Below, in pieces: positions 2,379 through 26,906 of a stretch of DNA of 28,803 bases. The translations under genes and the position numbers were made by a program. Every line of letters starts with the position of its first letter. The first letter of the stretch is position 1. The notes beneath the pieces were generated by a model. It had not been told where the DNA came from, did no database searches, and was given only the letters and a program-made list of their open reading frames with translations. This stretch comes from a virus, in IMG/VR virus record IMGVR_UViG_3300000228_000030, positions 1-28,803 of that record. One strand, 5' to 3'.

Positions 2379-2380
2379 AA

Positions 2381-2617: not shown

Positions 2618-2636
2618 GAAAATAAAGGATTAGAAG

Positions 2637-3573: not shown

Positions 3574-3575
3574 AA

Positions 3576-4100
3576 ATGCAACCACAAAAAGATAAACCGA
3601 TCGTTGGATTGTCTTTGTTGGAACGACTATTGAAAGACAAGAAAATTGAATTCAAAATGGAGTTTTGTGGTTTTCATAGAATTTATGAACTAGCAGCAAC
3701 CAATGAAAGAAAGATATATGTTTCATTTGATGGAGAATTCATAGGTGTTGCACTAAATGTTAAAGAAGTAATAGAACTAATTTCAACGATGGAGAATATT
3801 CCAACTACAAAATACGATGAATCTAAGATTGAAACTACATATGTGTATCACGAAGAAGAATTCGATAGAAAGTTTAAAGAAGAACTATTGCCCAAAAAAG
3901 TTGGTGCTACAAATGGATTAAAGATGTATGACAAACAATTCTATATTGTGAAAAAAGGTCCGAATGGGAAAACATCTGGGACTACATATTGTTTGTATAA
4001 TTTTAAGACAAGAAATTTGCTATGGGCTCATTGGGACAAGTCAATTTTGATTGGTTGGTTGATGACAAAATACCTAGAGATAGAACATTTAGATATATAA
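3576..4100 (+). CDS. hypothetical protein (174 aa)
   Basis: A 174-residue protein that begins two bases after the previous stop. It looks globular and mixed alpha/beta: strands such as RKIYVSFDGEFIGVALN alternate with helices, and the C-terminus holds a Trp-rich stretch (NLLWAHWDKSILIGWL). The central region has several Tyr and Glu residues (TTYVYHEEEFDRKFKEEL). I do not recognise a family and see no signal peptide or catalytic motif. It sits between the SSB group and the MazG-like gene. Confidence 0.65.
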   Translation: MQPQKDKPIVGLSLLERLLKDKKIEFKMEFCGFHRIYELAATNERKIYVSFDGEFIGVALNVKEVIELISTMENIPTTKYDESKIETTYVYHEEEFDRKFKEELLPKKVGATNGLKMYDKQFYIVKKGPNGKTSGTTYCLYNFKTRNLLWAHWDKSILIGWLMTKYLEIEHLDI

Positions 4101-5260: not shown

Positions 5261-5512
5261 ATGAAAGTAAAAGAATTGGTGAAAGATTTTACATTTGAAG
5301 AGGTATGCAATTATCTAGAAGGACATACAGGATTGCGATTACCTACATTCGAAGAAGCACGAAAATTGGAAACTAGACACAATGCATATTGGGTAAAAGA
5401 TGAGGTTGGAGATAGACAAGGAATATATGAAAATGGAAACTTGGAAAGTTCACATGTATTATTTAAAAATCAAGTAGTATTGATTGACGAGAGAAACAAT
5501 AGAAATGAATAA
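5261..5512 (+). CDS. hypothetical protein (83 aa)
   Basis: An 83-residue protein with GGAAGA before its ATG, between the two terminase genes. The N-terminal half is helical (KVKELVKDFTFEEVCNYLE). The second half has the layout LPTFEEARKLE, AYWVKDEVGDRQG and FKNQVVLIDE, loosely like the lectin/sulfatase-modifying type 'LPT.eEa...yW..d' pattern. The resemblance is weak and I do not assign the family. It ends in RNNRNE, and its stop overlaps the ATG of the large terminase (ATGAATAA), so the two are probably translated together. Confidence 0.62.
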   Translation: MKVKELVKDFTFEEVCNYLEGHTGLRLPTFEEARKLETRHNAYWVKDEVGDRQGIYENGNLESSHVLFKNQVVLIDERNNRNE

Positions 5513-7073
5513 AGAAAATAAAAGGTTGATAAGACCTGATTATACATTACCATACAAACCAAAAAAAGAATCAATAGAGTTTTTCTCTTGGGTCAATATA
5601 AACATTCCTGACAATGAATTTGTAACACCAAAAATGCACTATATAATGATTGATGAATTATTTTCAGAAGATATAAATACACAAGCATTAGTCCATCGAG
5701 AAGGAGCTAAATCCACAGTATTAACAAAGTTTACACCACTATATGTGGCTGCACGAGGAGAACTTCCTAACTTTGGAAGAGTTGTAAATTGTTGTATATT
5801 TTCTGCAACATATGCACAAGCAGTAGACTTGCTGAAGGATTTATATTATGCATGGGAAGCTTCTGAATTAATGCAAGAAACATTATCAATTGCAAAGAAC
5901 AAGAAAGGTAGAACTATTGCGGAAAGAGAAAATCATCTATGCTTTGAAAACAGTCAAGGACAATTGATTCATATTCAAGCATTAGGTGCTGGAGATTCAA
6001 TGAGAGGAACCAAAAAAAATGATGAAAATGGTAATTCGCACCGCATTGAATTATTCATATTTGATGATATTTTGAAAGAACTAATATTGGATTCTGAAAA
6101 AGAACGAAAGAAACTAAAAAAATGGTTTTATGGTCCTGTGCATCAAGCACGAAATTCATCACATTATAAAAAGATTGTGGTGGGAACTCCAATGCACGCT
6201 GATGACATAATTATGGAGATGTCAAGAAGTAAAACATACAAAACGGTTATGTTTCCAGTAGCAAATGAATTCCCAGTATCAGTAGATAAGATAATTTCAA
6301 GTTGGCCGGAACTACATACACCAGAAAGAATAATGAAAGATTATGAAGAAGCATGTGAAATGGGAGCAGCAGATGAATTTTTTAGAGAGAAAATGTTACA
6401 GGTGGTAAACGAAGAAATGAGAATATTTAAAGATGAATGGATACAAAGATATCACTATGCAGATTTGAAGCAAGAAAACTATAGATTGAATTTTTTCACA
6501 TCTATGGACTTGGCAGTATCAACAAAAAATACAAGTGATATATCTGCAATTATGACAATCGGAGTAAATAGTCAAGGACATAGATTTATAGTTGCATTGA
6601 AACGTGGACGACTTACTCCACAGGAAGTTATCGATGAATTGTTTAAGCAAGTAAGAAAATTCAATCCAATGGAGGTACGAGCAGAAAAAGCTGCATTACA
6701 ACAAGTATTGGATCATTTCATACAGAAGCAAATGATGGAAAAAAAGATTTATTTCAATTATAATCAATTGATTAATAATAGTGTTGATTCAAAAGATTTA
6801 AGAATTAGGTCATTGCAACCATTATTTAAGGCTGGAAAAATACATATACCATATGATGTAGATGTTGATGATATGAATGAGTTGTTATATGAAATACAAG
6901 GATATATCAAGACTGGTGGAACAACAAAATATGTAGATTGTATTGATTGCTTAGCAGGATTTATGGATCCAGATTTTGTAATTGAACCAATGGATTATAT
7001 AGGAACGGAGATAAATAATTATGATGAGAATTTCGAAGATGTGAGAGAGAATATAGACACATATGATTTTTAA
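5505..7073 (+). CDS. terL: terminase large subunit (DNA packaging ATPase-nuclease)
   Basis: A 522-residue packaging motor. The ATPase half has a phage-type Walker A variant, HREGAKST at residues 64-71, and Walker B LFIFDDI at 183-189 with catalytic acid at Asp187/188. Following T-rich strand VVGTPMHADD is the coupling motif. The nuclease half (RNase H fold) starts with the metal Asp335 in SMDLAVS and continues with Glu in VRAEKAAL and the last acids in VDCIDCLAG (Asp478/Asp481). It docks on the portal, translocates DNA and cuts it. I start it at ATG 5505, overlapping the previous stop by eight bases; a TTG at 5484 would add seven residues inside the previous gene. The ribosome site is weak, which fits translational coupling. 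Confidence 0.93.
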   Translation: MNKENKRLIRPDYTLPYKPKKESIEFFSWVNINIPDNEFVTPKMHYIMIDELFSEDINTQALVHREGAKSTVLTKFTPLYVAARGELPNFGRVVNCCIFSATYAQAVDLLKDLYYAWEASELMQETLSIAKNKKGRTIAERENHLCFENSQGQLIHIQALGAGDSMRGTKKNDENGNSHRIELFIFDDILKELILDSEKERKKLKKWFYGPVHQARNSSHYKKIVVGTPMHADDIIMEMSRSKTYKTVMFPVANEFPVSVDKIISSWPELHTPERIMKDYEEACEMGAADEFFREKMLQVVNEEMRIFKDEWIQRYHYADLKQENYRLNFFTSMDLAVSTKNTSDISAIMTIGVNSQGHRFIVALKRGRLTPQEVIDELFKQVRKFNPMEVRAEKAALQQVLDHFIQKQMMEKKIYFNYNQLINNSVDSKDLRIRSLQPLFKAGKIHIPYDVDVDDMNELLYEIQGYIKTGGTTKYVDCIDCLAGFMDPDFVIEPMDYIGTEINNYDENFEDVRENIDTYDF

Positions 7074-10863: not shown

Positions 10864-10867
10864 ATAG

Positions 10868-12589
10868 ATGGCTAGGTTACCAGCATACAAACCATCTGGT
10901 CAAGGACAAATGAAAGACCTCAACAATATTATTGTTTCAATGATAATTGCGTGGGGTGGATACAGATCAAAGCTAATAAAATTAGCAAATAAGATACATA
11001 CAAAATCATTTGATGGAAGCATAGAATATTATAATCCACTAGATTTGAAATCACAAATATGTAATCCAGAAAGTGATGTAGTAAAATATGTAAAAATGTT
11101 ATCATTTGATGATGAAACAATACAAGAATTATGTAATGCTGCAAATAATGATGATGTGAAAAATATATTCTTAAAGTATGATGGAACATTAAATAAAGAT
11201 CAAGCAGCATGGAATGAATTTTCATTAACCTTCCAAACAAGAATTGCACCATATGGACCATTTACAATACAATCATCCCATATGTCATACACGGATGCAG
11301 GACCACACGATCCAATGTATGTAAATCAGCTTGGAATAAATGGCGATACCGAAGATGGATATTATGCGAACAAAGATTGGGGTCAACCATTACCACCATT
11401 GAAACTAACAAATGGAACAATTACATATGCAAACCAAACAAGATTATGGGACAACTTTACATTGACTGCGGAAGGATCTGCATTACCAGGATGGAGTGCA
11501 GATTTAGGAAAGGCAATACTAGCACTAATTGCAATGACTGGTCAAGATGTATGTCAATTAGTATCTCAATCATTTACAACATCATTAATAGATGGAATAA
11601 CAACTATAATACAAACTGAAGTTTGGGGTATAGAAATAGATGCGACAGCAATGAGCACTTATTATATTGAATTTTCAGAATTAAATGGTGGACAATTTGA
11701 AGATGTTGATAGTAATGCAGAAAGAATTGTGGATATAGGTGGAGTTTGGCTTCCGTTTTATTGGGCAAGATTATGGGTAGAAGTGACAAAACCAATAGTG
11801 ACGGAAGAACAACGAAATAAATTATATGAAGATTCAAATGGATTGTTTTGGATAATAGGAAATTTCAATGGGTTTATTGCTACGGGAACAACAATTGTAA
11901 TGACTGTAGAAGGATTAAGGAAGGCAAATTCAAAAACATTTGGTTTCTATATGTCGCAATTTCTAACAATATATACAACGGAAGATGAGGGATCATTGCT
12001 CAAAAGATTTGTAGCAGCAATAACACAAATGTTTGTAACAATTGCAGATGCAGTTTTGGGAGTTTTCCTACATATTCCAATATTGAAACAAGGTGTTGAA
12101 ATATTTATAAACTGGATTGCAAACAAATATGGATTGAAATATGACGAAGCAAAAGATATATTGTCTCAAGCACTTGCAATGGTAATTATGGCAATAGTAG
12201 TAGCATATGTAGCACCAATGGCAATAGAAGCAATAACTGGAAGCGTTGGAACTTCAGTAGCATTGGAAGCAGAAACATTATCAATGTTTGGAAACATAGG
12301 AGCAGCAGCAACACCAATAACAAATTTAACACAAGTTTTGAATATTGCTTCGACTGGATTAGATGCATATCAACAAATAGAATTTGCAGGAACAAGCTTG
12401 TCTAAGGATGAAGCGAAAGAAAAAAAGGAGAAGGAGGAGAATCAAATTGTTCCCTTCTCATTCAGAGGATATAATGGAGTTGGTGAAGATTTCGAATCAA
12501 ATATGTTCATAATGTATGATGGAATGTTCAATCAAATGGATATATTATCTCAATCTACAACAATAACTACAACACAAGGAGGCAGATAG
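10868..12589 (+). CDS. virion protein with hydrophobic C-terminal segments (573 aa)
   Basis: A 573-residue protein four bases after the spike gene. The first 370 residues look globular and Trp-rich (AWGGYRSKLIKLANK, GGVWLPFYWARLWVEV). Residues about 380-415 (MFVTIADAVLGVFLHIP) and 430-465 (ALAMVIMAIVVAYVAPMAI) are strongly hydrophobic, enough to span or insert in a membrane, and are followed by a Gly/Ala/Thr-rich stretch and a Lys/Glu cluster (KDEAKEKKEKEE). This combination is seen in phage proteins released during infection to form a channel, but I do not recognise a named family. Its neighbours are the tail spike and a coiled-coil protein, so a tail or ejection role is inferred only. Confidence 0.6.
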   Translation: MARLPAYKPSGQGQMKDLNNIIVSMIIAWGGYRSKLIKLANKIHTKSFDGSIEYYNPLDLKSQICNPESDVVKYVKMLSFDDETIQELCNAANNDDVKNIFLKYDGTLNKDQAAWNEFSLTFQTRIAPYGPFTIQSSHMSYTDAGPHDPMYVNQLGINGDTEDGYYANKDWGQPLPPLKLTNGTITYANQTRLWDNFTLTAEGSALPGWSADLGKAILALIAMTGQDVCQLVSQSFTTSLIDGITTIIQTEVWGIEIDATAMSTYYIEFSELNGGQFEDVDSNAERIVDIGGVWLPFYWARLWVEVTKPIVTEEQRNKLYEDSNGLFWIIGNFNGFIATGTTIVMTVEGLRKANSKTFGFYMSQFLTIYTTEDEGSLLKRFVAAITQMFVTIADAVLGVFLHIPILKQGVEIFINWIANKYGLKYDEAKDILSQALAMVIMAIVVAYVAPMAIEAITGSVGTSVALEAETLSMFGNIGAAATPITNLTQVLNIASTGLDAYQQIEFAGTSLSKDEAKEKKEKEENQIVPFSFRGYNGVGEDFESNMFIMYDGMFNQMDILSQSTTITTTQGGR

Positions 12590-13320
12590 TGGCAACAATA
12601 GACTTATCAAATGATTTTAAGAAATACAATGATTTGGTAACCGTAGAAATAAACAAAGATAAATCGATTATATCGGATGCATATAAAAAAGTCGAAGATT
12701 ATTTTACTCAATTTGGATTGACGAATGAAGAAAAAAGTAAAGTGATGTCGGAGATGGCTGGAAATGCAGTTAAGATAACGAATGATCAAGCATTGCAGAC
12801 AACAATACAGTTAATTAAACTTGCATCCGATTTAGAACTACAAGCAATACAAATTGAAATTGCAAAACAAGAATTGGAAATAAAGAAAAAAGAACTTGAA
12901 CTAAAGACTGTAGAAGTTCAAATTGAATATAAGAAATTAGAAATGATGCAATATGAAATTCAATTGAAGCAAGCAGAAGTATCGAAAATAAATGCAGAAA
13001 TTACATTGATAAACAAACAACTTGCAACTGAAGATGCAAAAGCAGCTCAAATGAGATCTGCAACAGCATTACAAGATGCACAACGATTAGTCGAAGTGCA
13101 AAAAGTTGAATTAGTGAAAGCGCAAAAAGATCTTGCAATTGCACAAAAAGATTTAGCGATAAGACAAGAGCTTGGATATGGTGATAATATGCTAGTGAAA
13201 GCAGGAGAATTCCAAGGTGGACTTGCATCCTTTGCGGTAAATGCTGAATCAGATTCTGCACAAGCTGCAATAGATTCATTTGAAGCAACAATTTCTCAAA
13301 TGAAAGGAAGAGCAGGATGA
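12589..13320 (+). CDS. long coiled-coil virion protein (243 aa)
   Basis: A 243-residue protein that starts with GTG, one base overlapping the previous stop (TAGTG), with a strong AAGGAGG site. Residues about 80-195 form an almost unbroken coiled coil with alternating I/L/A and K/E/Q (ELQAIQIEIAKQELEIKKK). Near its end is a near-exact seven-residue repeat (AQKDLAIAQKDLAIRQ). The C-terminal 50 residues are Ala/Gly/Ser-rich. It lies between the hydrophobic protein and the portal and overlaps the portal start by four bases (ATGA). A tail needle, a core protein or an internal stalk are all possible. Confidence 0.62.
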   Translation: MATIDLSNDFKKYNDLVTVEINKDKSIISDAYKKVEDYFTQFGLTNEEKSKVMSEMAGNAVKITNDQALQTTIQLIKLASDLELQAIQIEIAKQELEIKKKELELKTVEVQIEYKKLEMMQYEIQLKQAEVSKINAEITLINKQLATEDAKAAQMRSATALQDAQRLVEVQKVELVKAQKDLAIAQKDLAIRQELGYGDNMLVKAGEFQGGLASFAVNAESDSAQAAIDSFEATISQMKGRAG

Positions 13321-15374
13321 TAATAGAGGAACTAGAAGAAGAAAGAGTTGAAGAAATATTCAAAGACCTTCGTGAAGATTTTAAGCAAGCAGAAGCTGCA
13401 AAAGTTTACATTGACAAATTGATTATTGAATGGAATGATTTATACTATGGAAAAAACAATACATATGAAAAGGATATAGATTTTGTTGATCCAGAGGCAG
13501 TTGTAAATTACAAAAAAAAGAATATTCCAAATCGTTCAAAAACGGTAATGAGAGAAATTGCAAAAAAGATCGAATGGCAAAAACCGAATATAGTTGAACC
13601 ATTTGTATCAACAAATACACCAATCGAAATTACTTGTCCAAAAAATGAAGAACGAGCAAGAAAACTTGAGAAATGGGCTAACAATGAATTTACAACTACA
13701 TTCGATAGACAAGAATTTGTAACTCAAGCAACGGATGTGATGTTGAGAGAAGGTACGGTATGGACTCAAACTTCGTGGGAAAACGATAGAATAGTTGAGG
13801 ATGAATACTTTGAAGGTATAACAATGGATGAGATACTTGCTGATAAAAGAGAAGTCCAAAGAATAGACCAAGCAAGAGAAGATACATTTAATGTTACATT
13901 TAAGAAAGTAATAGTAAATAAGAATAATCCTGATACAATTGTATTGAGAAATGAAAATGCATTCCCAGATCCAAAAGCAAGAACAATGAGTGAATTGATG
14001 TTTTTTTGCATAAGAAAGAAAATGTCAATATCTGATTTAAAGAAAATGGGTGTTGAACAAGATGTTCTGGATAGAATAGACTCAAACAAACAACCAAATT
14101 ATTCACAAAGTTCATTGGGTCAAATTAGAGATATGGATGATAGGGATTATGGATTCAAGCAAGATTCACAATCAAACGATAAGCAAAGAAGAATTGTTGA
14201 TGTGATTGAATATTGGGGATTCTATGATATAGATGGTGATGGAATCGTTGAACCAATAAAGGCTCAATGGATTGAAAGAGAAAACATAAACATTACTTTG
14301 ATTGAAAATCCAATGCCGGATAAACAAATACCGATTGATAGAGATGTATATTCTGCTAGACCATTTTCATTGTGGGGAAATCCTCCTGCATTCTTTTTAG
14401 GTGAAAACCAAAAAATAAAGAATGGAATAATGAGGGGAATATTGGATAACATGTCTTTGGCTAATAATGGACAAAAATTCATTATGCGTGGAACGTTGGA
14501 TTATTTGAACTTTAAAAAAATGAATAACAATGAAAGATACATCATAACAAATAAAGCAGATGGAATACAAGATGGTGCATTCAATCAACTTCCTGGTTCT
14601 GTGTTTGATTTGTATAGATTGGTATCTGAAGAATCAGAAGAACTAATGGGCGTATCTAAAAATACTCCAGCATTAACAAATTCATCTACTGATAAGAATG
14701 GAGCACAGCAACAATTAACAATGTCTCAACAAAGAATGAATGCAACCGTAAGAAGTATGTCAAATATGTTGAGAAAAATAATTGCAAGATGGATATCAAT
14801 GGCTGAGGTCTTCTTGGATGATGAACAAATTGCAATGTTATTTGATGAGAATGAACTAAAAGATATGAATGTTTTTCAATCTGGAAATACAAGCAAAATT
14901 CAAATTACAGTTGGTACCGAAGCAAATAGAAATATCAAACTACAACAATTGAATATGTTAATGCAACAATCGAAAGTACTTGAGAATAATCTTCCACCAG
15001 AAATATTGAATTCATTAGTAGCAGAAATGTTTGATTTATTTGACATGCATGAAAAAGCAAATAACTTAAGATCTTTTGTACCTCAACCAAGTCAAGAACA
15101 AATAATGATGCAACAACTTGAAATAGAAAACAAAACTCTAGAGAATGAGAAAATTAGAATGGAAACTGGATTGATGAACAAAGACGTTGAAGCAAGATAT
15201 ATGAATGCACAAGCAAGAATGATGGAAGCAAATGCAAACTATGGATACAAACAAGCACAATCTGCTGAAAAAATTGCTAAGACTGAATCACATCGTATGG
15301 ATACAGCTCTTAAACCAGTACAAGCAGAAAATGAAATTGCAAAAACAAAACAAAATAAGGAAAAAACTGAATGA
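13317..15374 (+). CDS. portal protein
   Basis: A 685-residue protein that forms the DNA entry ring at one capsid vertex. Its size, position just before a scaffold-like gene and the capsid gene, and internal pattern fit a podovirus portal. It has a helical acidic N-terminus, a clip/wing region with NIPNRSKTVMREIAKKIEW and PIEITCPKNEERARK, a beta-rich part (DRDVYSARPFSLWGNPPAFF), a crown helix area (LVSEESEELMGVSKNTPAL) and a long Gln/Met/Lys-rich helical tail from about residue 590. Such tails form the barrel that reaches into the capsid. The start overlaps the previous stop as ATGA and the stop overlaps the next start likewise. Confidence 0.78.
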   Translation: MIIEELEEERVEEIFKDLREDFKQAEAAKVYIDKLIIEWNDLYYGKNNTYEKDIDFVDPEAVVNYKKKNIPNRSKTVMREIAKKIEWQKPNIVEPFVSTNTPIEITCPKNEERARKLEKWANNEFTTTFDRQEFVTQATDVMLREGTVWTQTSWENDRIVEDEYFEGITMDEILADKREVQRIDQAREDTFNVTFKKVIVNKNNPDTIVLRNENAFPDPKARTMSELMFFCIRKKMSISDLKKMGVEQDVLDRIDSNKQPNYSQSSLGQIRDMDDRDYGFKQDSQSNDKQRRIVDVIEYWGFYDIDGDGIVEPIKAQWIERENINITLIENPMPDKQIPIDRDVYSARPFSLWGNPPAFFLGENQKIKNGIMRGILDNMSLANNGQKFIMRGTLDYLNFKKMNNNERYIITNKADGIQDGAFNQLPGSVFDLYRLVSEESEELMGVSKNTPALTNSSTDKNGAQQQLTMSQQRMNATVRSMSNMLRKIIARWISMAEVFLDDEQIAMLFDENELKDMNVFQSGNTSKIQITVGTEANRNIKLQQLNMLMQQSKVLENNLPPEILNSLVAEMFDLFDMHEKANNLRSFVPQPSQEQIMMQQLEIENKTLENEKIRMETGLMNKDVEARYMNAQARMMEANANYGYKQAQSAEKIAKTESHRMDTALKPVQAENEIAKTKQNKEKTE

Positions 15375-16330
15375 CACTTGAAGAAGAATTAGAACAAATG
15401 CAGCAAGATGCGTTTAATGATAGAGACAATGGTGAAGAACAATCGGAAAAAGAATCCAACGAAGAGGAAGAAGAAAACGATGAAGAAACGAATGATGAAG
15501 GCAGTAAAGAAAATATTGAAGAGGATGAACAAGAAGAATCCGAAAATAAAGAAGAAGAAAAAACTGAAAGAACTTTGGAGAAAAAAGGAAACAAAGAGTT
15601 CGAACCAATCAATGTATTGATAAATGGTCAAAAAATATCACTAGATACAAGAGAAGAAATGATTGCATTCATAAACAAGAGTGCAAATTCAATAGGAAGA
15701 AAACAATCAAAGAGTGAGAATGATCAAATCCTTGAACAGGGGAACATAACACGAGAAGATCTACAATTACTGGTTGATGCAAAGAATGGAAACAAAGCTG
15801 CAATTAACAAACTTGCAAAAACAAGTGGAGTTGATATTCTAGATATAGATGAAAATGAAGAATACAAGCCTCAATTCAATCCTGTGATTATGACTGAGAT
15901 TGATGAAATAGCAAACGATATATTATCGAATGAGGATTTGGCAAAACAATTCAAACAAACATTAAAAATTATTCCAGATGATTTCAAAAAACAAATATCA
16001 TCAGATCCAAACGCACTAAAACAATTTGCATCGCATATTGAAAGTGGATTGGCTGCTAAAATTATTCCCGAGGCAATAAAGTCAGGAATGATGAATGATA
16101 AGAGTTTCATTGAGAACTATGTAACAATTGGAAAAAGGATGTATGATGAAGAACTTGCAACCGGTAACAACAATGATAAAACTTCACAAAGAAAAACTAA
16201 TCCAAAGGCGGAAGAACTTAGAAAGCGAGCTTCTAATCCAAAGGGACTAAATCAAGAACGCAATAAAAAAGATTCAGCAGATGATATATGGAATATGTCA
16301 GATGAAGAATTCAATAAAAAGTTCATGTAA
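15371..16330 (+). CDS. probable capsid scaffolding protein
   Basis: A 319-residue protein between portal and capsid. Residues 5-75 are extremely acidic (about half Glu/Asp, for example EEEEENDEETNDEG). The middle is helical. The end, DDIWNMSDEEFNKKFM, is the short amphipathic C-terminal helix by which scaffolds of podoviruses bind the capsid protein. Scaffolds guide prohead assembly and then leave or are cleaved. No protease is evident here. The ATG overlaps the portal stop (ATGA). Because of the acidic Glu run, the same DNA also reads as a Lys-rich frame from 15408 to 15620, which is not a gene. Confidence 0.75.
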   Translation: MTLEEELEQMQQDAFNDRDNGEEQSEKESNEEEEENDEETNDEGSKENIEEDEQEESENKEEEKTERTLEKKGNKEFEPINVLINGQKISLDTREEMIAFINKSANSIGRKQSKSENDQILEQGNITREDLQLLVDAKNGNKAAINKLAKTSGVDILDIDENEEYKPQFNPVIMTEIDEIANDILSNEDLAKQFKQTLKIIPDDFKKQISSDPNALKQFASHIESGLAAKIIPEAIKSGMMNDKSFIENYVTIGKRMYDEELATGNNNDKTSQRKTNPKAEELRKRASNPKGLNQERNKKDSADDIWNMSDEEFNKKFM

Positions 16331-16483: not shown

Positions 16484-17765
16484 ATGGCAACAATGGGAAC
16501 TGGAACATTTTTAAGTTCAAAAGTAACGGCGGTTTATGATAGAATGCTACTTATGAGAGCAGTGGATAATCAAATATTTGATGTCGGTGCACAAGCACGA
16601 ACAATCAATGCAAATTCAAACACAAAGACTGGATTCGCTTACCGTTAATTTGTAGCGGCATATTGTGGTGACACAATTTGAAAACTCATCGAATTGCTGG
16701 GAACTCCATTAATATGGAAAATCAGCAGCCAAGCATGCAATTGCATGAAGGTTCAACGACTATTCCGAGAGGAAGTAGAGACAAGTGTCTCGAAGCGGTG
16801 AGTATCTAATTAAAATAAAATTAGATAATGATATAGTCTAATCTATGCAGTAATGTATAGCTGCACTTAATTGTGCGATGCGAGATTAACGAACTCGTGT
16901 GAATATAATGTACAAAAATATACTCCCCGCAACAACGCCCCTAGCTGAATATGACGGAAGTAATCTTAAAACTGCCAATAAAATAGTAAGAGAAGAAGTT
17001 TCATTTAGTGTTGGACATTATGGCGATTATATTGTTTACACAGATGAATTGGATCTCTATGATTTTGATAATATTCGTGCATCATTTTTGGACGTATTGG
17101 GTGACCAAGCTAGTATTACTTTGGACACACTAAGAAGAAATGCATTGAGAGCTTCAACAAACCTTGTATATGCAAATGGACAAACAACAAGAGCATTGGT
17201 TGCATCAACTAAAGCTAAGATTGTTGTTGGAGATTTGAAACTTATTGGAGTAAAACTCAAAAACCAAAGAGCGAAGAAATTCAAGCGAGTAGTAACTGGA
17301 ACAACTGCAATAGGAACTACACCAATCAGAAGTGCATACCTTTCAATTATATCTCCAGAAGTAACTGAAGACTTGAGATTGTTGGACAAATGGAAAAATG
17401 TTGAAGATTATGCGGATTACTCAAAAGCAATTTCAGAAGATGAAGTTGGTTCTTGGGGAGATTTTAGATTCCTTGAATCAACAAACAATGCTCCAATTGA
17501 TGTATCTGGAACGAATGTATATCAATCTTACTTCTTTGGTGAGAATGCATATACAACTGTAACGGTAAGAGGAAAACAAGGTATTCAAACAAAAGTAAAA
17601 CCACTTGGTTCAGCAGGAAGTGCTGATCCACTCGATCAATACGGTACAATCGGATGGAAGGCAATTGCAGGTACAGCAATTCTTAACCAAGCGTGGTTGG
17701 TTGTGGCTGAATCCACAGCATCAATCGAAGACGCAACCGTTAAGCATTATTACGATTTTTCGTAA
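16484..17765 (+). CDS. major capsid protein, N4-gp56 type, split by a group I intron
   Basis: Joined from exon 1 (16484-16645, 54 codons) and exon 2 (16911-17765, 284 codons plus stop), giving 338 residues. The joined chain reads GFAYR then YKNILPATTPLAE across the junction, the usual 'F.r...LpatTPL.EG' of N4-gp56 capsid proteins. It continues with the family pattern: VGHYGDYIVYTDELDL, ASITLDTLRRNALR, PIRSAYLSIISPEVTEDLR and a C-terminal beta section. It assembles the icosahedral shell. ATG 16484 follows AAAAGG; the frame is open back to 16415, but that adds unsupported codons. Without splicing, translation stops at TAA right after Arg54. The GTG at 16899 that seems to open exon 2 is inside the intron and is not a real start. 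Confidence 0.88.
16646..16910 (+). ncRNA. self-splicing group I intron (subgroup IA) in the capsid gene
   Basis: A 265-nt ribozyme. P1: exon CCGU (16642-16645) pairs with GCGG (16655-16658), with the required U.G at the splice site. P10: UUUGUA (16649-16654) is the exact complement of the first six bases of exon 2, UACAAA. P2: ATTGTG/CACAAT with GUGA loop (16662-16677). P3: 16684-16691 with 16796-16803 (8 bp). P4: GCTG 16696-16699 with CAGC 16723-16726. P5: TCCAT/ATGGA. P7: GACTA 16758-16762 with TAGTC 16834-16838. Between P7 and P3 are two extra hairpins (TTCC/GGAA, 16763-16774; GAGACA/TGTCTC, 16778-16791), typical of IA. P8: 16804-16811 with 16819-16826. P9: CTATGCA/TGTATAG with GUAA loop (16843-16860). 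The intron ends in G16910. It contains no open frame for a homing nuclease. Confidence 0.92.
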
Positions 17766-17832: not shown

Positions 17833-18300
17833 ATGGATATGCAAAGAAAAGTATTGAAAGATATGAACAAAGATGAGTTGGATAAAATTATGACTCAACT
17901 TGAAATTCCTGGAGAAAACTCAGATACATTGGCAATCAAAGTTCAACGGATTGAAGAGTCGGGTAAATTTAAACCAATCAATGAAAATGGTACAAGTGGT
18001 ATTAAGATTGATGAGAAAGGTAGACGAATACATCCTACATTAGGAACATATAGAAAAGTTATTGTAACACCAATCGAACCAATGGAACAAAATACATCAA
18101 TTTTTGTTTCAATCAATGCCTATACAGCTGAATTTAAACCAAGAGAAATGGTTGAATTGCCAACGGAAATTATTAAATTGTTGAAATCACCTAGAGTACC
18201 TCAGCATTATTATGATTCGAGAGCTGTATCTGAAAATGGAAATGTTGGTGCACATATGACTAGATATGTTGCTAAGTATATTGTAGAGTCTGCTGAATAA
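17833..18300 (+). CDS. hypothetical virion protein after capsid (155 aa)
   Basis: A 155-residue protein with AAAGGGAAA before its ATG. The first 70 residues are helical and charged (RKVLKDMNKDELDKIMTQL). The rest reads as a compact beta-rich domain (YRKVIVTPIEPMEQNTSIF, VSINAYTAEFKPREMVELP) followed by SPRVPQHYYDSR. It lies directly after the capsid gene, where decoration, head-completion or adaptor genes are found. No family name can be given. The N-terminal helical part could be an assembly handle. Confidence 0.65.
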   Translation: MDMQRKVLKDMNKDELDKIMTQLEIPGENSDTLAIKVQRIEESGKFKPINENGTSGIKIDEKGRRIHPTLGTYRKVIVTPIEPMEQNTSIFVSINAYTAEFKPREMVELPTEIIKLLKSPRVPQHYYDSRAVSENGNVGAHMTRYVAKYIVESAE

Positions 18301-18316
18301 TACATAAGGAGTAAAA

Positions 18317-18529
18317 ATGTTCGATCAACTTCTAAAGTTATTTGGTAATGAAGGTTTTGCAAATTTGCTTAAAACTGGATTATCTGGATATGGTGCATTC
18401 AAAGCTGGTGATATGATGAACTTTCAAAAGGATATGATGAAAAAATCAGAACAACGGCAAGATGCATTATTTAAACAAGACCAAGAAAGCAAGGATTATA
18501 GAAAAAATCTTGATTTCAGCTTTACTTGA
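18317..18529 (+). CDS. small virion-type protein (70 aa)
   Basis: A 70-residue protein with AAGGAG eight bases before the ATG. It has a short amphipathic N-terminus (MFDQLLKLFGNEGFANLLK), a Gly/Ala turn (GLSGYGAFKAGDMMNF) and a charged, Gln-rich helix (MKKSEQRQDALFKQDQES). Similar small proteins with a hydrophobic front and a charged helical tail precede the large internal proteins of many podoviruses. That is a resemblance of layout, not a family match. It could be a minor ejection protein. Confidence 0.62.
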   Translation: MFDQLLKLFGNEGFANLLKTGLSGYGAFKAGDMMNFQKDMMKKSEQRQDALFKQDQESKDYRKNLDFSFT

Positions 18530-18610: not shown

Positions 18611-19468
18611 ATGGCAGGTATAGGAGAGCTTCAAGATTATAGAAGATATAAACAATCGGATCCAATGGATGGTATGCGTTCGTTAGCATATTTATTGCAA
18701 ACACAGAATGAATCATTTAAAGAAATGGGTGAAGGAATTGACAAATATGGGCAAGGCAAAGGACGTGAAGCACTTGCAACATTAATGGCAACACCAGAGT
18801 ATGGAAAATTAAATCCAGAACAAGCACAATCAAAAATAATGGAATTGACAAAAGGACGTGATCTTGGTGATGCAGGAAAAAGTATATTAGAACAAACATA
18901 CAAAAACAAAGGTGATATTCAAGATCTTGCACAAGATGAACAATTAAGAAGATTGGAACATGGTTTTGATTTGGATAAATTGGCGGTACAAGAACGATAC
19001 AATATTGCTGGAGATGCAAGAAGCCATGCAAATACAATGGAAAGATTATCCAAATATGGTGAAGGAAGTGGAAAAAGCGGAAGAGGTGGAAAAGAAGAAT
19101 TAATGGGTGGTGAAAATAGTAATCCAGCAAGAAAAGCATATATAGAAGAAATATGGAATACACAAGATCCAGATATCAGAAATAAACTAATTGCAAAAGG
19201 AATTATGGATGGAACACTGAGCAGACAAGATAGACTTACATTAAGTAATGCGGGATTATTTGGAAAAAACAACGAGAAACAAAAAATCAATGGAGTAAGA
19301 ATTGGACAAGAAGAATACAATGCAATGGATCCAGAATCGAGGAAATTTTACGAAGCACATCCAGAAGAAGTTTATTTTGTGAATCGTCAGCCAATGGTTA
19401 GGAATATGCCATTAAATGCAGTATCATTGAACGAACTCAAGAAAACATTAAAACCAAAACAAAAATAA
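18611..19468 (+). CDS. hypothetical internal-virion-type protein (285 aa)
   Basis: A 285-residue protein with AAAAGGA before its ATG, directly upstream of the giant polymerase gene. It is helical and charged, with a Gly/Ser/Lys-rich linker near residues 150-165 (GEGSGKSGRGGKEE). The C-terminal domain has RKAYIEEIWNTQDPDIRNKL and EEYNAMDPESRKFYEAHPEE, segments that look like a small folded unit. No known family is recognised. Its position between small virion genes and the giant protein suggests it is packaged and perhaps ejected together with it. Confidence 0.65.
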   Translation: MAGIGELQDYRRYKQSDPMDGMRSLAYLLQTQNESFKEMGEGIDKYGQGKGREALATLMATPEYGKLNPEQAQSKIMELTKGRDLGDAGKSILEQTYKNKGDIQDLAQDEQLRRLEHGFDLDKLAVQERYNIAGDARSHANTMERLSKYGEGSGKSGRGGKEELMGGENSNPARKAYIEEIWNTQDPDIRNKLIAKGIMDGTLSRQDRLTLSNAGLFGKNNEKQKINGVRIGQEEYNAMDPESRKFYEAHPEEVYFVNRQPMVRNMPLNAVSLNELKKTLKPKQK

Positions 19469-19475
19469 AGGATTC

Positions 19476-22400
19476 ATGATGAATGAATGGGAAAATCTTG
19501 AATTACCAAAAGAAGAAAATGCTATGATAGATTTTATTCCATCCAAGCAAAATGATGACAACGAATGGAAGAATATAGATATAAGTAGCAAGGAAGCATT
19601 AGAGAAACTAAAAGACTTTGGTAAGGATAAAAAAGTATACAATGATGCAGACGAACTATGGAAATTTGGTGAGACTAAAGATAAAAAGCCAATATACAAA
19701 ACAAAAGATGAAATGGATGCTATTGATAGAGCTAGAGCAAATTTTGCACAAACATCATTTTCTGAAGGTGTAAACAAATTATTTGGATTGAAGGGGAATG
19801 AGGCTGATGTAAAAGTTGTTGATGGAAAAAAAGAAAGTCTAGACAATAAAATAATCAATGATATGGACAATCAACAAATTCAAGAATATATAGGTCGAAA
19901 GATGATTCCATCGGATAATCCAAAGGATAAACATTTATATGCCTTTGAATCATTAGACGTGGATGGAACGACTTCCATTAAATTTGGTATAGCTAAGAAA
20001 AGTTTTCAAGATAGATACAAGAAACAACCAGAAGTATTGCAAGGTGCTAGATTGTTATTTGATGAACCAGTAGAAAATGCAGAAGAAATTGAAAATACAA
20101 TACATGGATCAAAATGGGCGAGAGAAAATAGGGAGTTTGCATTTGGTAAGGGACATATAAAAGGTTCGGGAGGAACTGAATACTATGATGCAAAATCATT
20201 GTTATTTGGAGAAACAACAACAAATACTGCACAAACACCAATACAAGAAAATGCTACTAAAAAAGTTGAAACAATATTGAAAGATAATCCATACAAAGAT
20301 GTTGCTAAAAATGTAAGAGATATTGGACATGATTTGAATACCACTACTGAAAATATCAATTCAACTGAAATTGTTAAACCAGCTGAAGAACCATTGGATA
20401 GAACATACTTCTTGAAAAATGATACATCGAAATTAACAGTTGAGCAATTAATTGAGAAAGCAAATAAGGTTCGTGAAGGAACAAACTACTTAACTCCAGG
20501 ACGAGCATATTCAAAAGATGTGTTAGAGTCAATGCCGCAATATCAAGAATTGGCACGAAAGATTGATGGTGATATATTTAAACTTGAAGGAGATACTCCA
20601 CAAGAAAAAGCAAAATCACTATCAAAACAAATGTCAAGTTTCAATTGGAATATGATGGATACAGTTGGAAGTGCGTTAATGCTGGATGGAAACAAGAAAC
20701 TTGCAAAGAATTTTTCAGACGCATTAGAACTATATGACGCAACGGATACAGATGCAACGCAAGTTGTAGAGGCAACAAAAAATGTAGCAACAGATCCAAC
20801 ATCTTGGATATCGTTAGGAACATTTCCAGCGATAAAAGGAATTGCGCAAGAAGCAGGGAAGAAGGGATTAATAAATTATCTTCGTGGTGAAGTACCAAAA
20901 AATGTTGCAATTGGTGCTACAGAAGGTGCTGGATATGCTGGAACTTTTGATTTAGCAAGACAAAATATAGATATTGAAGCAGATAAGAAAAAAGAAATAA
21001 ATGCTGGTGAATTAGCACAATCAATGGGACTAGGTACAGTATTGGGTGGAGCATTGGGTGGAACAATGACAAAGCTTATGAAAGCTCCAACTAAAGAAGA
21101 AGGAGTCAACGCATTTAATGAATTTAGAAATGAAGCCAACACAGTTATAAATAATCCTGAATCAACTCCTAAACAAATAGAAGAAGCAACGACTCACTTG
21201 GAATTCATAGATAATGCAGAAAGGATTATGAATAGTGGAAAAACACAAGAAGAAAATATTGCTGCATTAAATTCAATATTAAATGATGGACAAAAAAAAG
21301 GTTTCCTTGAGTTAGATACTGAAGCTAGAAAAGAATCAAAACCAGAAGGATTAACTCCAGAAGACTATGAAACAATTAAGAATGAAGATGGAACTTCACA
21401 AGTAAAATTGAAAGATGATGTTGCAAAACAAATTGAAAAAGCAAAGCAATATAAGTCTGAACAAGAATTGCAAATAGTCAAAGGAGAAGGTGCAAAAAAA
21501 ACTAGAAGCGAAATTGAGCAATCAACATTCAAAGTAAGAAATCCATTGACGGAACAAGAAGGTGTAATTGAGGGACAAAAATATATTGAGCCATTGAACG
21601 ATGAAATGAAAATTGAATATGGATATGATGATCGTGGAAGAATGTATGCACATGAAAAATCACTACTTAGTCATCAAGGAACGAAAGAAGACAAAGCCTC
21701 ATTGGAAGTTGTGCCGTGGAAACCAAAGATTGAAAAATGGAAAGACATTGAAAATGAAATTGCAAGGAGAATGAACTTCTATGACCACGACAAAACATTG
21801 CAACAAAGATATGGACAAACACAAGCGTCATTGAAACAAGAAAGAATAAAGAATAATATTGCATCAAAAGATATCGCAAATAGAAATGCATTTATGATAG
21901 ATCAATATCGAGATTTATACAAAGTTACTGAGCATAAAGGATTGAGGCAAGACATAAAAAGTTCAATAAAAGAAATCAAAGAAAATAAAATTGTTGACTA
22001 TAAAATATCTGACGAATTGAAAGAACGAGTGGATAAGCAATATTATGATCAATTAAAAATCGATGAAACACATTCTGCAGAAAGAGTTAGACGTGATATT
22101 GAAATAAGCCAAGACTTTAAAAGACGAACTGAAACAAGACTTGAAAAAAATGAATTTGATGCAATAGACAATCCAGAAGCTGACATAGTAAAAAAACAAG
22201 ACGTCGATGAAAGAACAATCAAATCAATACAATCAAAGATAGATGACCAAGTATCTTCAAGATTAGTAAAAGACAATTTGAATGATGTAAAACAAGGAAT
22301 GCAATTATTGGGTAGAAATTGGTCGGGGAAGAGTTCAGAAGTATTGGGAACAAAACTTAAGAATAAAATGAAAGTTGTTGATGAATATCGAAATAGATTG

Positions 22401-25400
22401 AATGATATGCAGGATTTTAATGATGCAAAAATAACATTGCAAGAATTGAGATATCGTGAAGAAAGAAGATTGCAAGATAAATGGAAAACTGGATCAAAAA
22501 TAGAATTCAAAGATATGACCGAACTAACAAAATTCCAAGAAGAAAAGATCAAGGAGTATGCTGATATTGGATTGAATGTTAAACCATCATATGAGAAAAA
22601 TGAATTTCATCAATCTACTGGAGCTCAAAATTCAGAAAAGGCAAGACAATTTAAACTTGAACGAGAATCGAAAGAAAGAAAATCGAATTCAGCAGCATAT
22701 GATTCATTGATAGGAAGAATCTCACATTTTAGAGAAACCGGAAAACTACCAATATCAAAAGACAATAAATACGGAAAACAAGGACAAGTTGCATTAACTG
22801 AAAAACAAATACAAGCAATAGACGATAAGATATTGTCTGATAAAGAAATTGCAGGAATGCAAGAAATTCCAAATGTGACGAATGCAGAAAAGAAAACAAT
22901 GATAAAAGATTCGAAGAAAAATGCAATTGTTAAAATACGAGAAGCACAAAAGAAGCGACTTGGACTTTCAAAAAATGATACAAAACCAAGAATAGTGAAT
23001 TTCAAAGATTCAATATCAGATGTGTCGAATTCATATATGCAAATTATGGCTACGGTATTAAGCTCTGCAAATATTGGAAAGCATACAAAACTTGGCGGAA
23101 AAGGATTTGAACTTAATGATATTCGAGAAGCGATGGGTAAAGATTTTGAAGAAATGGGAATTAAACAACCAGAGAAAAATGGAGAGAAAATTCCTTGGAA
23201 AAATGTAACAAAACCACTTGTTATGAAGGAGGGGTATGGACAACAACAAAAATCAAGAATTAACGAATTGATGGAATCAAATGGAATAACAAAAGAACAT
23301 GCAGAACAAATAGATAAGGCTTATCAAAACATTATGGAAAAAGAAATGCCTGAACTTAAAATGGTTAGAGAAGCAATCTATGCAAAACTTACAGATCCTG
23401 ATTTTAATGGACACATCAAATATAAAATTGGTAACTTTGAAGTTGATTTCAAAATGCTTAAGAATGAAACTGGAATGATGAAAATAAAAGGAACCAATAA
23501 AGAGGTAACAATAAAAACCGGAAGTGTTGACGAAGCAAGTAGAGCATTAATGCCAAATATTATTCATTCAATAGATGGATATATTGCTAGAAAAATGCAA
23601 AAACAAGGATTTCACTCAACACACGACTCATTTGTTATTCCTGCTGGAAGAACTGAAGAAGATGCAATGAAAGCATATAATGAAATTTTAAAAGAAATAA
23701 ATTCTGGAAATCTATTCGAAAACATAATGAAACAAATTGGAGTAGATTCAAAGAAATTTAAGCAAAATACATTAACAAATGAAATGATTGATGAATCGAC
23801 TGCAAAGATGAAAATAGAACATTCAAAAGATATTGCAGAAGAAGCAACAAAGCGTGAAGAAGACTTATCAAGAACTTTGACTGATTCTGAAACAATGCGT
23901 GAATATATGGCATCGAATAATCACAGACAAACTCCAACGGGAAGATTGATTGATAGATTGGTACAAGAAGCAATGCATAGTAATATGTCAATTGCAAGAG
24001 AATCAGATGATGTCTTTGAAAGACAGTTCGCACTAGCAATGCAATCACCACACTATGATAAAACGAAACAAATCGAAGCTCCAGAAGGTGTGAATAAAGC
24101 GTTATGGAATAAAACACAAGAAGAAATATTCAATGAGTCAAGAGCAAAGATTGAATATAATCCATTCTTGCAAGAAAAACTAATGAATAATCAAATGAAA
24201 GATTTGTTTGATTTCCCAACAAAACAAGAAAGAAAATTCTTTGACGAAAATGGGAAAATGATTGGTGAAAAGACTAAGTCAAAAACTGATATACTTATCA
24301 AAGAAAGACGACTTGGAAGAAAAATATATAATGATTTGCCAAAACGAATAAAAGATTATGTATCAAAAGATTCGAAGAGTTATCAAGAACTTGCATTGAA
24401 AGTAAGAAACGAAAATAAATCAAAGATTGAAACACAACCTGAGACAAAAACTGAAGAAGTGATTCAACCTAAAGTTACAGAGAAGATTCAACCTAAAGTT
24501 GAAGAGGCAATAGAACAAAAACAAATGCCGATTGAACAACAATTCGAAACTGCAATTGTATTACATGCAAATGAAGTACAACCAAATAAAGGATTGTTGC
24601 AAAAAATAAAAGACGCTTGGTATGATAGTGAGTTTGTTGCATATATTGAAAGGCAATTAGGAAATACTGAAAGGTCAAAGCAATTCAATAAATTGCATGC
24701 AATTCAACAACATGCAAGTGAAATGGTTGCAAGAAAACATGAAGCACTGAAAAAGAATTGGGATAATATTCTTCCTAAAGATGAATTGAAAAACATTACT
24801 AAACATATATTACATACTGATTTAGAAGCAATAACTGATGCAAGTGGGAATGTAATGTCAGTAAATGAAATTGCAAAATTCATGAAAGACAATAAAAGAT
24901 TGCTTGATTTTAGACATCCAGTAATGGGAAAATTGGATACAGCAATGAATCAAAGTGCAAAAGCAATAGGACGACCAGAGAATCAAATTGGACATTTCTT
25001 TGACAATGCAGATGAAATTGTAAAACATTTTGAATTGAAACAAAGTGATGCAGAAATTATTGATAAGATGATTACGATAAAAGCGATGAAATATGATACG
25101 CAAGCATTCATAGACAAATATAAAAATGAACAATGGTTTAAGGATGTGATACAAACAAGAAAAATAGATAAACAAAGATCCAAAGAATTGTTTGAGCAAA
25201 ATGGTCAATCATATGTAAAAGGGTGGATTGCCGAAATAACTGATAATGGGAAAATGCTACGATCTGATGATAATCCAATGGCTGAAAATGGATTTGAAGT
25301 TGTACGTAATACACAACCATCATATGAAGCAGGAGCAATTCCAATAAGTATTGAAAAAAATAAAGTTGGAAAGACAATTGAAGGATCAAAGAGACCAATA

Positions 25401-26906
25401 AACAATGAAACAATGAACAAAGCATTTGAAAATCAAATGAAAATTACTGGAAAGAATGATATGAAGGTTGCAGGAGAAATAATAAGAAAGGAACTTGGAC
25501 GAACAAATGATGCATCCCAAATACTTGCAGGAACAACTGCGTCGGTAATGAATAAAGATGCGAGAAGAACTGTAGTTGACACAATATTGCAAACAAAAAA
25601 AGATTTTCCAAAAATATTCTCAGATACTGAGCAACCAAATATGATGAAAATTCCACCAAATGTACAAAAAAGAATGCCATATGAATTGCAAGGCGAAATA
25701 AGATATATTGATAAAGCAATGTATAGGCAAATTGTCGGAGGTGAAAGTCCAACTTGGACAAATGGAGAAGGAAATAGAGCATTGAGAGTTGTAGGAACAA
25801 TGGTTAGGGATTTAACTAAACGTTTTAAACAAGATGTTGTATTAAAAAATCCATCTTCATATGGAAATGCAGAAGCAATGAATGTAACATTAGGACTATC
25901 AGTAGGTATTGATCCAATAAAAATAGCAAAATATCAAAAAGAAGCATTGGATGAAATGGCGAATGTAAAGAAATTGATAAGTGAAATAGCAATTGCAGAA
26001 TCATTGGGGAAAGATACAAAAACTATACAAAGTCAATTAAATAAATCTGAATTATACCAAATGGAGAAAATTGGATTGACAACAAATGCAATTGAAGGTG
26101 TTGCAGGAAGTGGTGGAATAGTTTCTGATATGTTATCGGAAGCAACAAGAGGAAACTTAGATAAAATAACAAATGAAATATTGTTGAATCAAAATTCGAC
26201 ACTTGGGAAAGGAACAACGAAAATATTTTCTGCAATAGATACAAGTGGTAGATATATGATTGCAAAAGGAATGATAAATAAAGGAAAATCAATAGAAGAA
26301 GCAGTATTGATTGCGAATGGATTACTTGGAGATATGAATCAAATTGCTCCAGCATTAATATCAACATTAGACAACAATGGTATTGCTCCATTCTTAAAAT
26401 GGTTTACCCAAATAACACCGATGATTATGAAACAAACAAAAGAAAATCCAATGAAAGCATTTGGAGTTGCTGCAGCAGTATATATGCTAGGTAAAGCATC
26501 TGATACAAGAGAAGATCAATTTGATGATAACAATTTTGCTGGAGTAAATTCTGCACCTTGGAATCCAATAGGAACTCCAATAGATTTTGCTGCAGATAAA
26601 ATAGAATCAGTTTCGGATAAAACAAAAGCATATAAACTTGCGAAAAAGAGAGAAGAAGGAACACAGAAAAATAGATTGGATAGTATGGAAATGCTAATGT
26701 ATAATGAATTGGCTCCATACATACTTCCAAGTATATATAAAAAACCATTGGAAGTATTCTTGGGCAAGGAAAAAGATTCTGAATGGACAAACAAAGATTC
26801 AATGAAAGTATTGAGAAAAACGGTACTGCCAAAACGACAACAAAAAAACAATGAAGTTGATTATCGACCATTCACTCAACAAGTGCTTGACGATAATTTA
26901 AAGTAA
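19476..26906 (+). CDS. giant virion protein with T7-type single-subunit RNA polymerase core and GIY-YIG-like domain
   Basis: A 2476-residue protein. Order: 1-130 acidic, unrecognised; 153-240 GIY-YIG/T5orf172-like (LYAFES, IKFGIA, DRYKK, ENAEEIENTIH, GTEYYD); 430-535 Gly/Ala-rich ejection-type region (VAIGATEGAGYAGTFDLA, GLGTVLGGALGG). The RNA polymerase begins with DxxGR at 718-722 (YDDRGRMYA, then HQG). Motif A is DVSNSYMQ with Asp1182, motif B is VTKPLVMKEGYG with Lys1246 and Tyr1254, His1364 lies in PNIIHSIDG, and motif C is HDSF with Asp1384. These match T7 residues 421-425, D537, K631, Y639, H784 and D812. Residues about 750-1150 are a charged helical insert between DxxGR and motif A. 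From 1450 on the protein is helical, ending with an FLKWFTQITPMIMKQ segment near 2310. By analogy with N4 it is packaged, ejected and transcribes early genes. AAAGGA precedes ATG 19476. Confidence 0.87.
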   Translation: MMNEWENLELPKEENAMIDFIPSKQNDDNEWKNIDISSKEALEKLKDFGKDKKVYNDADELWKFGETKDKKPIYKTKDEMDAIDRARANFAQTSFSEGVNKLFGLKGNEADVKVVDGKKESLDNKIINDMDNQQIQEYIGRKMIPSDNPKDKHLYAFESLDVDGTTSIKFGIAKKSFQDRYKKQPEVLQGARLLFDEPVENAEEIENTIHGSKWARENREFAFGKGHIKGSGGTEYYDAKSLLFGETTTNTAQTPIQENATKKVETILKDNPYKDVAKNVRDIGHDLNTTTENINSTEIVKPAEEPLDRTYFLKNDTSKLTVEQLIEKANKVREGTNYLTPGRAYSKDVLESMPQYQELARKIDGDIFKLEGDTPQEKAKSLSKQMSSFNWNMMDTVGSALMLDGNKKLAKNFSDALELYDATDTDATQVVEATKNVATDPTSWISLGTFPAIKGIAQEAGKKGLINYLRGEVPKNVAIGATEGAGYAGTFDLARQNIDIEADKKKEINAGELAQSMGLGTVLGGALGGTMTKLMKAPTKEEGVNAFNEFRNEANTVINNPESTPKQIEEATTHLEFIDNAERIMNSGKTQEENIAALNSILNDGQKKGFLELDTEARKESKPEGLTPEDYETIKNEDGTSQVKLKDDVAKQIEKAKQYKSEQELQIVKGEGAKKTRSEIEQSTFKVRNPLTEQEGVIEGQKYIEPLNDEMKIEYGYDDRGRMYAHEKSLLSHQGTKEDKASLEVVPWKPKIEKWKDIENEIARRMNFYDHDKTLQQRYGQTQASLKQERIKNNIASKDIANRNAFMIDQYRDLYKVTEHKGLRQDIKSSIKEIKENKIVDYKISDELKERVDKQYYDQLKIDETHSAERVRRDIEISQDFKRRTETRLEKNEFDAIDNPEADIVKKQDVDERTIKSIQSKIDDQVSSRLVKDNLNDVKQGMQLLGRNWSGKSSEVLGTKLKNKMKVVDEYRNRLNDMQDFNDAKITLQELRYREERRLQDKWKTGSKIEFKDMTELTKFQEEKIKEYADIGLNVKPSYEKNEFHQSTGAQNSEKARQFKLERESKERKSNSAAYDSLIGRISHFRETGKLPISKDNKYGKQGQVALTEKQIQAIDDKILSDKEIAGMQEIPNVTNAEKKTMIKDSKKNAIVKIREAQKKRLGLSKNDTKPRIVNFKDSISDVSNSYMQIMATVLSSANIGKHTKLGGKGFELNDIREAMGKDFEEMGIKQPEKNGEKIPWKNVTKPLVMKEGYGQQQKSRINELMESNGITKEHAEQIDKAYQNIMEKEMPELKMVREAIYAKLTDPDFNGHIKYKIGNFEVDFKMLKNETGMMKIKGTNKEVTIKTGSVDEASRALMPNIIHSIDGYIARKMQKQGFHSTHDSFVIPAGRTEEDAMKAYNEILKEINSGNLFENIMKQIGVDSKKFKQNTLTNEMIDESTAKMKIEHSKDIAEEATKREEDLSRTLTDSETMREYMASNNHRQTPTGRLIDRLVQEAMHSNMSIARESDDVFERQFALAMQSPHYDKTKQIEAPEGVNKALWNKTQEEIFNESRAKIEYNPFLQEKLMNNQMKDLFDFPTKQERKFFDENGKMIGEKTKSKTDILIKERRLGRKIYNDLPKRIKDYVSKDSKSYQELALKVRNENKSKIETQPETKTEEVIQPKVTEKIQPKVEEAIEQKQMPIEQQFETAIVLHANEVQPNKGLLQKIKDAWYDSEFVAYIERQLGNTERSKQFNKLHAIQQHASEMVARKHEALKKNWDNILPKDELKNITKHILHTDLEAITDASGNVMSVNEIAKFMKDNKRLLDFRHPVMGKLDTAMNQSAKAIGRPENQIGHFFDNADEIVKHFELKQSDAEIIDKMITIKAMKYDTQAFIDKYKNEQWFKDVIQTRKIDKQRSKELFEQNGQSYVKGWIAEITDNGKMLRSDDNPMAENGFEVVRNTQPSYEAGAIPISIEKNKVGKTIEGSKRPINNETMNKAFENQMKITGKNDMKVAGEIIRKELGRTNDASQILAGTTASVMNKDARRTVVDTILQTKKDFPKIFSDTEQPNMMKIPPNVQKRMPYELQGEIRYIDKAMYRQIVGGESPTWTNGEGNRALRVVGTMVRDLTKRFKQDVVLKNPSSYGNAEAMNVTLGLSVGIDPIKIAKYQKEALDEMANVKKLISEIAIAESLGKDTKTIQSQLNKSELYQMEKIGLTTNAIEGVAGSGGIVSDMLSEATRGNLDKITNEILLNQNSTLGKGTTKIFSAIDTSGRYMIAKGMINKGKSIEEAVLIANGLLGDMNQIAPALISTLDNNGIAPFLKWFTQITPMIMKQTKENPMKAFGVAAAVYMLGKASDTREDQFDDNNFAGVNSAPWNPIGTPIDFAADKIESVSDKTKAYKLAKKREEGTQKNRLDSMEMLMYNELAPYILPSIYKKPLEVFLGKEKDSEWTNKDSMKVLRKTVLPKRQQKNNEVDYRPFTQQVLDDNLK

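Follow-up and report, generated by a model that had tools for sequence, protein, structure and literature searches.

To our knowledge, gp50 of bacteriophage N4 is the one well-studied single-subunit RNA polymerase (RNAP) that is packed into the virion and injected into the cell. A full-length virion RNA polymerase (vRNAP) of the gp50 type is one of the seven hallmark proteins of the Schitoviridae (PMC10654107). Here, we analysed a 28,803-base virus record of IMG/VR (IMGVR_UViG_3300000228_000030), a genome fragment referred to as the window, in which one open reading frame (ORF) of 2476 codons, 19476-26906, encodes a giant protein with T7-type polymerase motifs. We take this 2476-residue protein to be, very probably, the virion RNA polymerase of a group of N4-related phages with small genomes; it would be packed, ejected and used to transcribe the first genes, with a catalytic core of the type found in RNAPII, the separate polymerase of N4.

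The initial annotation had read five T7-type active-site motifs, in T7 order, in the segment 21612-23760 (residues 713-1428 of the giant protein). A script check recovered all five at the residues named there, and both profile matches and conservation place them beyond chance (Table 1). Across the aligned giant genes, whose products are 20-33% identical to the window protein, R722, D1182, K1246, Y1254, G1255, D1367, H1383 and D1384 are invariant; His1365 is replaced by glutamine in one relative (L015), and the DxxGR positions other than the arginine vary in some family members. A T7-class active site is maintained by selection. The spacing of the motifs is T7-like from motif A on, but not before it: DxxGR and motif A are separated by 460 residues in the window protein and about 370-510 in all family members, versus 112 in T7, 112-115 in T7-like enzymes, 107 in a fused RNAPII of one relative (G009) and 135 in N4 gp50. 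This very large insertion, modelled by AlphaFold2 as a long run of helices, had gone unremarked in the initial annotation, as had the resemblance of the core to RNAPII.

Searches with the giant protein as a single sequence did not reach the relatives of this phage. The whole window protein gave no match by tblastn against 50,697 phage records, by phmmer against the PDB, or in a direct scan of IMG/VR. They were found instead via portal and capsid genes and family profiles: eight IMG/VR relatives retrieved by portal and capsid protein carry the giant gene over its core, a ninth (L033) was found with the core profile, and a tenth (L060) lies in a contig of a metagenome-assembled genome (MAG). The sole PHROG match of the giant protein was phrog_2051 (E=2e-11, residues 1182-1376), the profile of the RNAPII subunit gp16, which N4 gp16 itself matches with E=5e-172; N4 gp50 matches only phrog_2206. 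When the family core profile was run against PDB sequences, one significant match was returned, N4 RNAP2 (6dt7, E=5.5e-13). In addition, residues 560-1480 were modelled with AlphaFold2 (mean predicted local distance difference test score, pLDDT, 68; about 80 in the core). The modelled core (residues 1164-1446, with the thumb and the DxxGR region outside the match) was closest to N4 RNAPII (Z 18.1), followed by mitochondrial RNAPs (Z 10-17) and T7 RNAP (Z 10-13), and N4 mini-vRNAP was absent among the fold matches listed. In the structure-prediction check suggested by the initial annotation, a palm/fingers fold is accordingly present in the model at the motifs, and not the lack of one that would have spoken against a polymerase. 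Because model confidence is low around DxxGR, that region is assigned from its sequence, namely the invariant arginine, a Y...QG...KASL stretch like that of RNAPII and T7, and a match to the end of the gp15 family profile (E=1.5e-4); the relative G001 has a match to phrog_2166, also of the gp15 family, with E=1.4e-6.

Further comparisons bear on the type of core. By hhalign, the giant family matched the large RNAPII protein of its own phages at 99.8% (E=6e-28), N4 gp16 at 99% (9e-18) and T7 at 97% (3e-11), with no significant match to the gp50 core, and single-sequence hidden Markov model scores gave the same ranking. All 15 matches listed for the giant protein of the relative L010 in tblastn were genes for RNA polymerase or RNA polymerase 2, the best with E=8e-11. 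Moreover, the gp50 signature ExDGxxxG was found in 8/8 gp50s and 0/10 giants. In a free tree of the motif A-C region, the giant cores formed one clade (support 100/99) adjoining the phages' own RNAPII (94/81), and a 100/100 branch parted the gp50 cores from giant cores, RNAPII and T7; an alternative for the exact RNAPII sister of the giant cores gave p 0.369. Sequence, profile and fold comparisons all point to N4 RNAPII, rather than gp50, as the type to which the giant core belongs.

Four signs agree on a virion protein that is ejected: the position of the gene, the C-terminal domain, the absence of cysteine and a separate RNAPII in relatives. The giant gene lies among the virion genes, in the place that gp50 takes in N4, as expected of N4 gp50-type virion polymerases. 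Residues 1721-2294 fold like gp50 2714-3436 (9pnt; Z 15.4, the next match scoring 4.7) and like predicted Schitoviridae virion polymerases in BFVD (E down to 1e-15), and hhalign matched this domain to the gp50 C-terminus at 95% (E=2.5e-8). None of the 2476 residues is a cysteine, where about 18 would be expected from the other ORFs of the window; all eight N4-type vRNAP sequences examined, several of them partial, are likewise cysteine-free, versus 1-14 cysteines in RNAPII and T7 RNAPs. The same absence has been taken as a vRNAP sign for phage StenR_269 (PMC10747016). The N-terminal region gave only Pfam matches below their cut-offs; a glycine-rich stretch within it (about residues 480-535) could be membrane-active. 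N4 gp50 carries an HExxH motif after the core, in C1, and no such motif was found after the core in the giant proteins. The sole HExxH among them, a zincin-like HELNH at residue 552 of the L033 protein (L033 6476-13771), precedes the core. Taken together, these signs make an RNA polymerase that is packaged and ejected the likeliest identity of the giant protein, and the proposal of a T7-class core within a virion protein of the N4 ejection type is borne out by core fold, C2 domain, cysteine content and gene position.

Seven relatives with near-complete genomes of 43-47 kb also encode a separate RNAPII, as a gp15/gp16-like pair in six and as one fused chain in G009. A packaged polymerase alongside a separate, newly made one corresponds to the N4 scheme. 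The fused chain, of about 650 residues (L044 656-2623; record G009 1664-3625), unites DxxGR with motifs A-C in a single ORF. Among the records, three whose ends overlap measure 44.8, 45.3 and 46.8 kb, with genes nearly all on one strand. These small, N4-like phages make up a lineage about which little is known and which was not found among the isolate phage records searched. The suggestion of a separate lineage is supported, on grounds other than those first given for it. In the relative L017 the giant gene consists of two overlapping ORFs, 8654-13540 (1629 residues) and 13516-16317 (934 residues), the break falling after the polymerase and ahead of the C-terminal domain; the N4-type polymerase of AD45-P1 is likewise divided into two ORFs. 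The L060 contig (WTBY01000035.1), 43.6 kb long and containing the giant gene, comes from a MAG assigned to the Helicobacteraceae, which hints weakly at Campylobacterota hosts.

In the course of infection that we infer, the giant protein would be packed in the head and ejected with or ahead of the DNA, its domains, loosely linked, threading the narrow tail and refolding in the cell, with the N-terminal region probably aiding entry or membrane seating. The central core would then carry out two-metal nucleotide addition through D1182 and D1384, together with K1246, Y1254 and H1365. The region preceding and including the RNAPII genes would be transcribed by the giant polymerase, after which RNAPII would take over.

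A search for early promoters covered the sparse region before RNAPII, where five relatives hold 15 short hairpins in all, versus about 2.7 in shuffled sequence. Two of them, at 16598 and 17143 of G001 (L061-L063 joined, reverse complement), lie 0.5 kb apart and have in common the upstream sequence ACAGAGATGT and, downstream, TTAATT.CTA; their stems differ, each being of 7 bp with a 3-nt loop. Common flanks with different stems fit the literature on N4 early promoters (PMC4496689). A motif fitted afterwards, a hairpin followed by TAA[TC]T, occurs at just 0-2 sites per genome. With so small a sample and a motif picked after looking, the hairpins, with the G001 pair as candidate early promoters, are a lead rather than a result.

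Several observations weigh against reading the window gene as a packaged polymerase with an RNAPII-type core: the window, a 28.8-kb fragment, holds no RNAPII gene; the giant protein has one or a few cysteines in two relatives; DxxGR is modelled at pLDDT <50; and a tree constrained to join giant and gp50 cores was not rejected (a cost of 3.25 log-likelihood units; approximately unbiased test, p-AU 0.106). Because of this last result, a mosaic gene, in which an RNAPII-like engine is set in an ejection body of the gp50 type, is favoured, not proven. Whether such a mosaic arose by an exchange, in which a gp50-type ejection protein lost its gp50 core to one of RNAPII type, derived as a copy from an RNAPII gene of the phage itself or a related one, is in our judgement an evenly balanced question. 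The protein may alternatively have been a packaged gp50 orthologue throughout, with no exchange, whose core kept ancestral T7/RNAPII-like features as the gp50 core of the Schitoviridae diverged fast. We hold this to be possible, if short of probable: it accords with the shared gene position, the homologous C-terminal domain, the constrained tree and the more canonical residues that some gp50 relatives (pVa5, phi 1) retain around HSxD/HDA, yet profile comparison relates the C-terminal domain to gp50 but gives nothing significant between the two cores, although the core is usually the best-conserved part, and both the distribution of ExDGxxxG and the 100/100 branch speak against it. If an exchange did take place, the ejection body would be a modular carrier able to deliver different enzymes, and the lineage might use promoters unlike N4's hairpins.

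The late structural position of the gene and its very large size would also suit a polymerase relic within a structural or ejection protein, non-packaged, expressed late or inactive, and with no part in transcription. This is unlikely, since a relic would lose its catalytic residues, whereas ten or eleven members retain them despite high divergence; moreover, these phages have a separate RNAPII, which would serve later transcription as in N4. Because it was by eye that the motifs were first picked out, and because the giant protein is in large part helical, we also considered chance motifs in a tape-measure-like helical protein that is no polymerase at all. The probability of this is negligible, and the idea was rejected on profile E-values of 2e-11 to 6e-28, a predicted palm/fingers fold at Z 18 and invariance across relatives.

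The gene order of the window had been said to differ from that of N4, which proved mistaken. The window runs TerS candidate (a weak match only), TerL, tail genes, portal, gp57-like gene, capsid gene, small genes and giant gene, and N4, from gp69 to gp50, runs TerS, TerL, tail, portal, gp57, major capsid protein, small genes, gp52/gp51 and gp50; the window order is the N4 order, shortened by having fewer intervening genes. The portal is about 30% identical to that of the best phage record. Within the capsid gene, a group I intron (RF00028 match at 16636-16860, 105 bits, E=1.2e-26), whose boundaries were taken from sequence reading, separates codons 54 and 55; the junctions (T before the intron, G at its end) follow group I rules, and splicing restores FAYR-YKNILP. 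The gene is a single uninterrupted ORF in relatives such as L002. In L018 it is broken twice (9089-10000 and 10742-11487), the first interruption matching a group I intron (E=2.6e-11) at nearly the same site as in the window and the second being without an Rfam match. The L010 counterpart of the gene just before the giant gene has a weak match to 'pilot protein for DNA ejection' (E=0.007). Elsewhere in the window, 8497-10863 encodes a tail fibre that ends in a chaperone domain of the peptidase S74 family (Pfam E=1.2e-9).

Table 1. Coordinates of the genes, protein regions and motifs described in the window.
Feature	Coordinates	Strand	Basis or remark
TerL	5484..7073	+	N4 gp68 position; phrog_38 E=2e-59
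Portal protein (N4 gp59 / SU10 family)	13317..15374	+	
N4 gp57-like scaffold/tape measure gene	15371..16330	+	phrog_2120 E=4e-26
Major capsid protein, exon 1 (54 codons)	16484..16645	+	
Group I intron in capsid gene (about 265 nt)	16646..16910	+	Rfam RF00028
Major capsid protein, exon 2 (N4 gp56 family)	16911..17765	+	phrog_1357 E=2e-51
Small conserved virion gene downstream of the capsid gene (N4 gp55 position)	17833..18300	+	
70-residue conserved gene, candidate small virion/ejection protein	18317..18529	+	
Small virion gene without cysteine, candidate ejection partner (gp51/gp52 position)	18611..19468	+	position, cysteine count
Putative giant virion-type RNA polymerase gene	19476..26906	+	2476 residues, no cysteine; homologous genes in 10 other loci
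N-terminal region, residues 1-699	19476..21572	+	length varies among relatives
DxxGR (DDRGR, 718-722)	21627..21641	+	followed by T7/RNAPII-like Y......S.QG....KASL
Large helical insertion, residues 723-1181	21642..23018	+	model and motif spacing
Palm/fingers catalytic core, residues 1164-1446	22965..23813	+	profile and fold matches
Motif A (DVSNSYMQ, 1182-1189), predicted catalytic D1182	23019..23042	+	
Motif B (VTKPLVMKEGYG, 1244-1255), with K1246 and Y1254	23205..23240	+	
PNIIHSIDG (1360-1368), H1365 at the T7 H784 position	23553..23579	+	
Motif C (HDSF, 1383-1386), predicted catalytic D1384	23622..23633	+	
C-terminal domain homologous to N4 gp50 C2	24636..26357	+	fold, BFVD, hhalign

Compared with N4 gp50 (9pnt; mini-vRNAP 2PO4), the giant protein is alike in its position by the capsid and ejection genes, its giant size, its lack of cysteine and its layout of N-terminal part, polymerase and C-terminal domain, the last of these homologous to C2. 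It is, however, about 1000 residues shorter, has neither the ExDGxxxG form of motif A nor the HExxH of C1, has a core without detectable similarity to that of gp50, and bears a far longer insertion before motif A. It would work like gp50, of which it is the positional and architectural counterpart, but it lacks two gp50 features, the core sequence type and the C1 HExxH, and is better not classed with the ordinary gp50 proteins. N4 RNAPII (gp15 plus gp16) is the closest solved relative of the core by both sequence and fold, and the order of its DxxGR, motif A, PDGF-type and HSID motifs is shared; it is a small, early, two-chain product, whereas the window core forms a single domain within a giant protein that is late and free of cysteine, its DxxGR linked to motif A by the large insertion. 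T7 and mitochondrial RNAPs share the catalytic residues of single-subunit RNAPs and the palm/fingers fold (Z about 10-17), but are free enzymes of about 900-1300 residues, expressed in the cell or imported, and have no ejection domains.

Other podophages related to N4, Poorviridae vB_PunP_Y3 (PMC11654794) and StenR_269 (PMC10747016), combine an N4-type capsid with a giant cysteine-free protein encoded near the capsid genes, for which a role as virion RNAP has been proposed (PMC11654794, PMC10747016). Both were considered as family members and rejected, their giants matching neither the core nor the C-terminal profiles (with about 70% of the Y3 protein covered); the two count as further relatives of N4, on the margin of the N4-like family or beyond it. 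Among the Schitoviridae hallmarks, the window holds an N4-type portal, major capsid protein and TerL, a weak TerS and a vRNAP with a different core; the Schitoviridae isolates among the records listed measure about 66-104 kb, versus 44.8-46.8 kb in the relatives with overlapping ends. A census of N4-like viruses kept only proteins of at least 2500 residues with ExDGxxxG (PMC10654107), and the whole lineage would consequently be dropped at both steps. A parsimony argument in a 2015 review places packaged enzymes before the split RNAPII (PMC4496689), and the lineage described here bears on the origin of the two N4 polymerases. It also bears on the parts of gp50: those held in common with the giant protein (C2, no cysteine) suggest a role in packaging or ejection, and those that differ, a role in transcription. 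Set beside N4, the lineage would represent a second design, with the same ejection domain, another core and a genome about two thirds the size.

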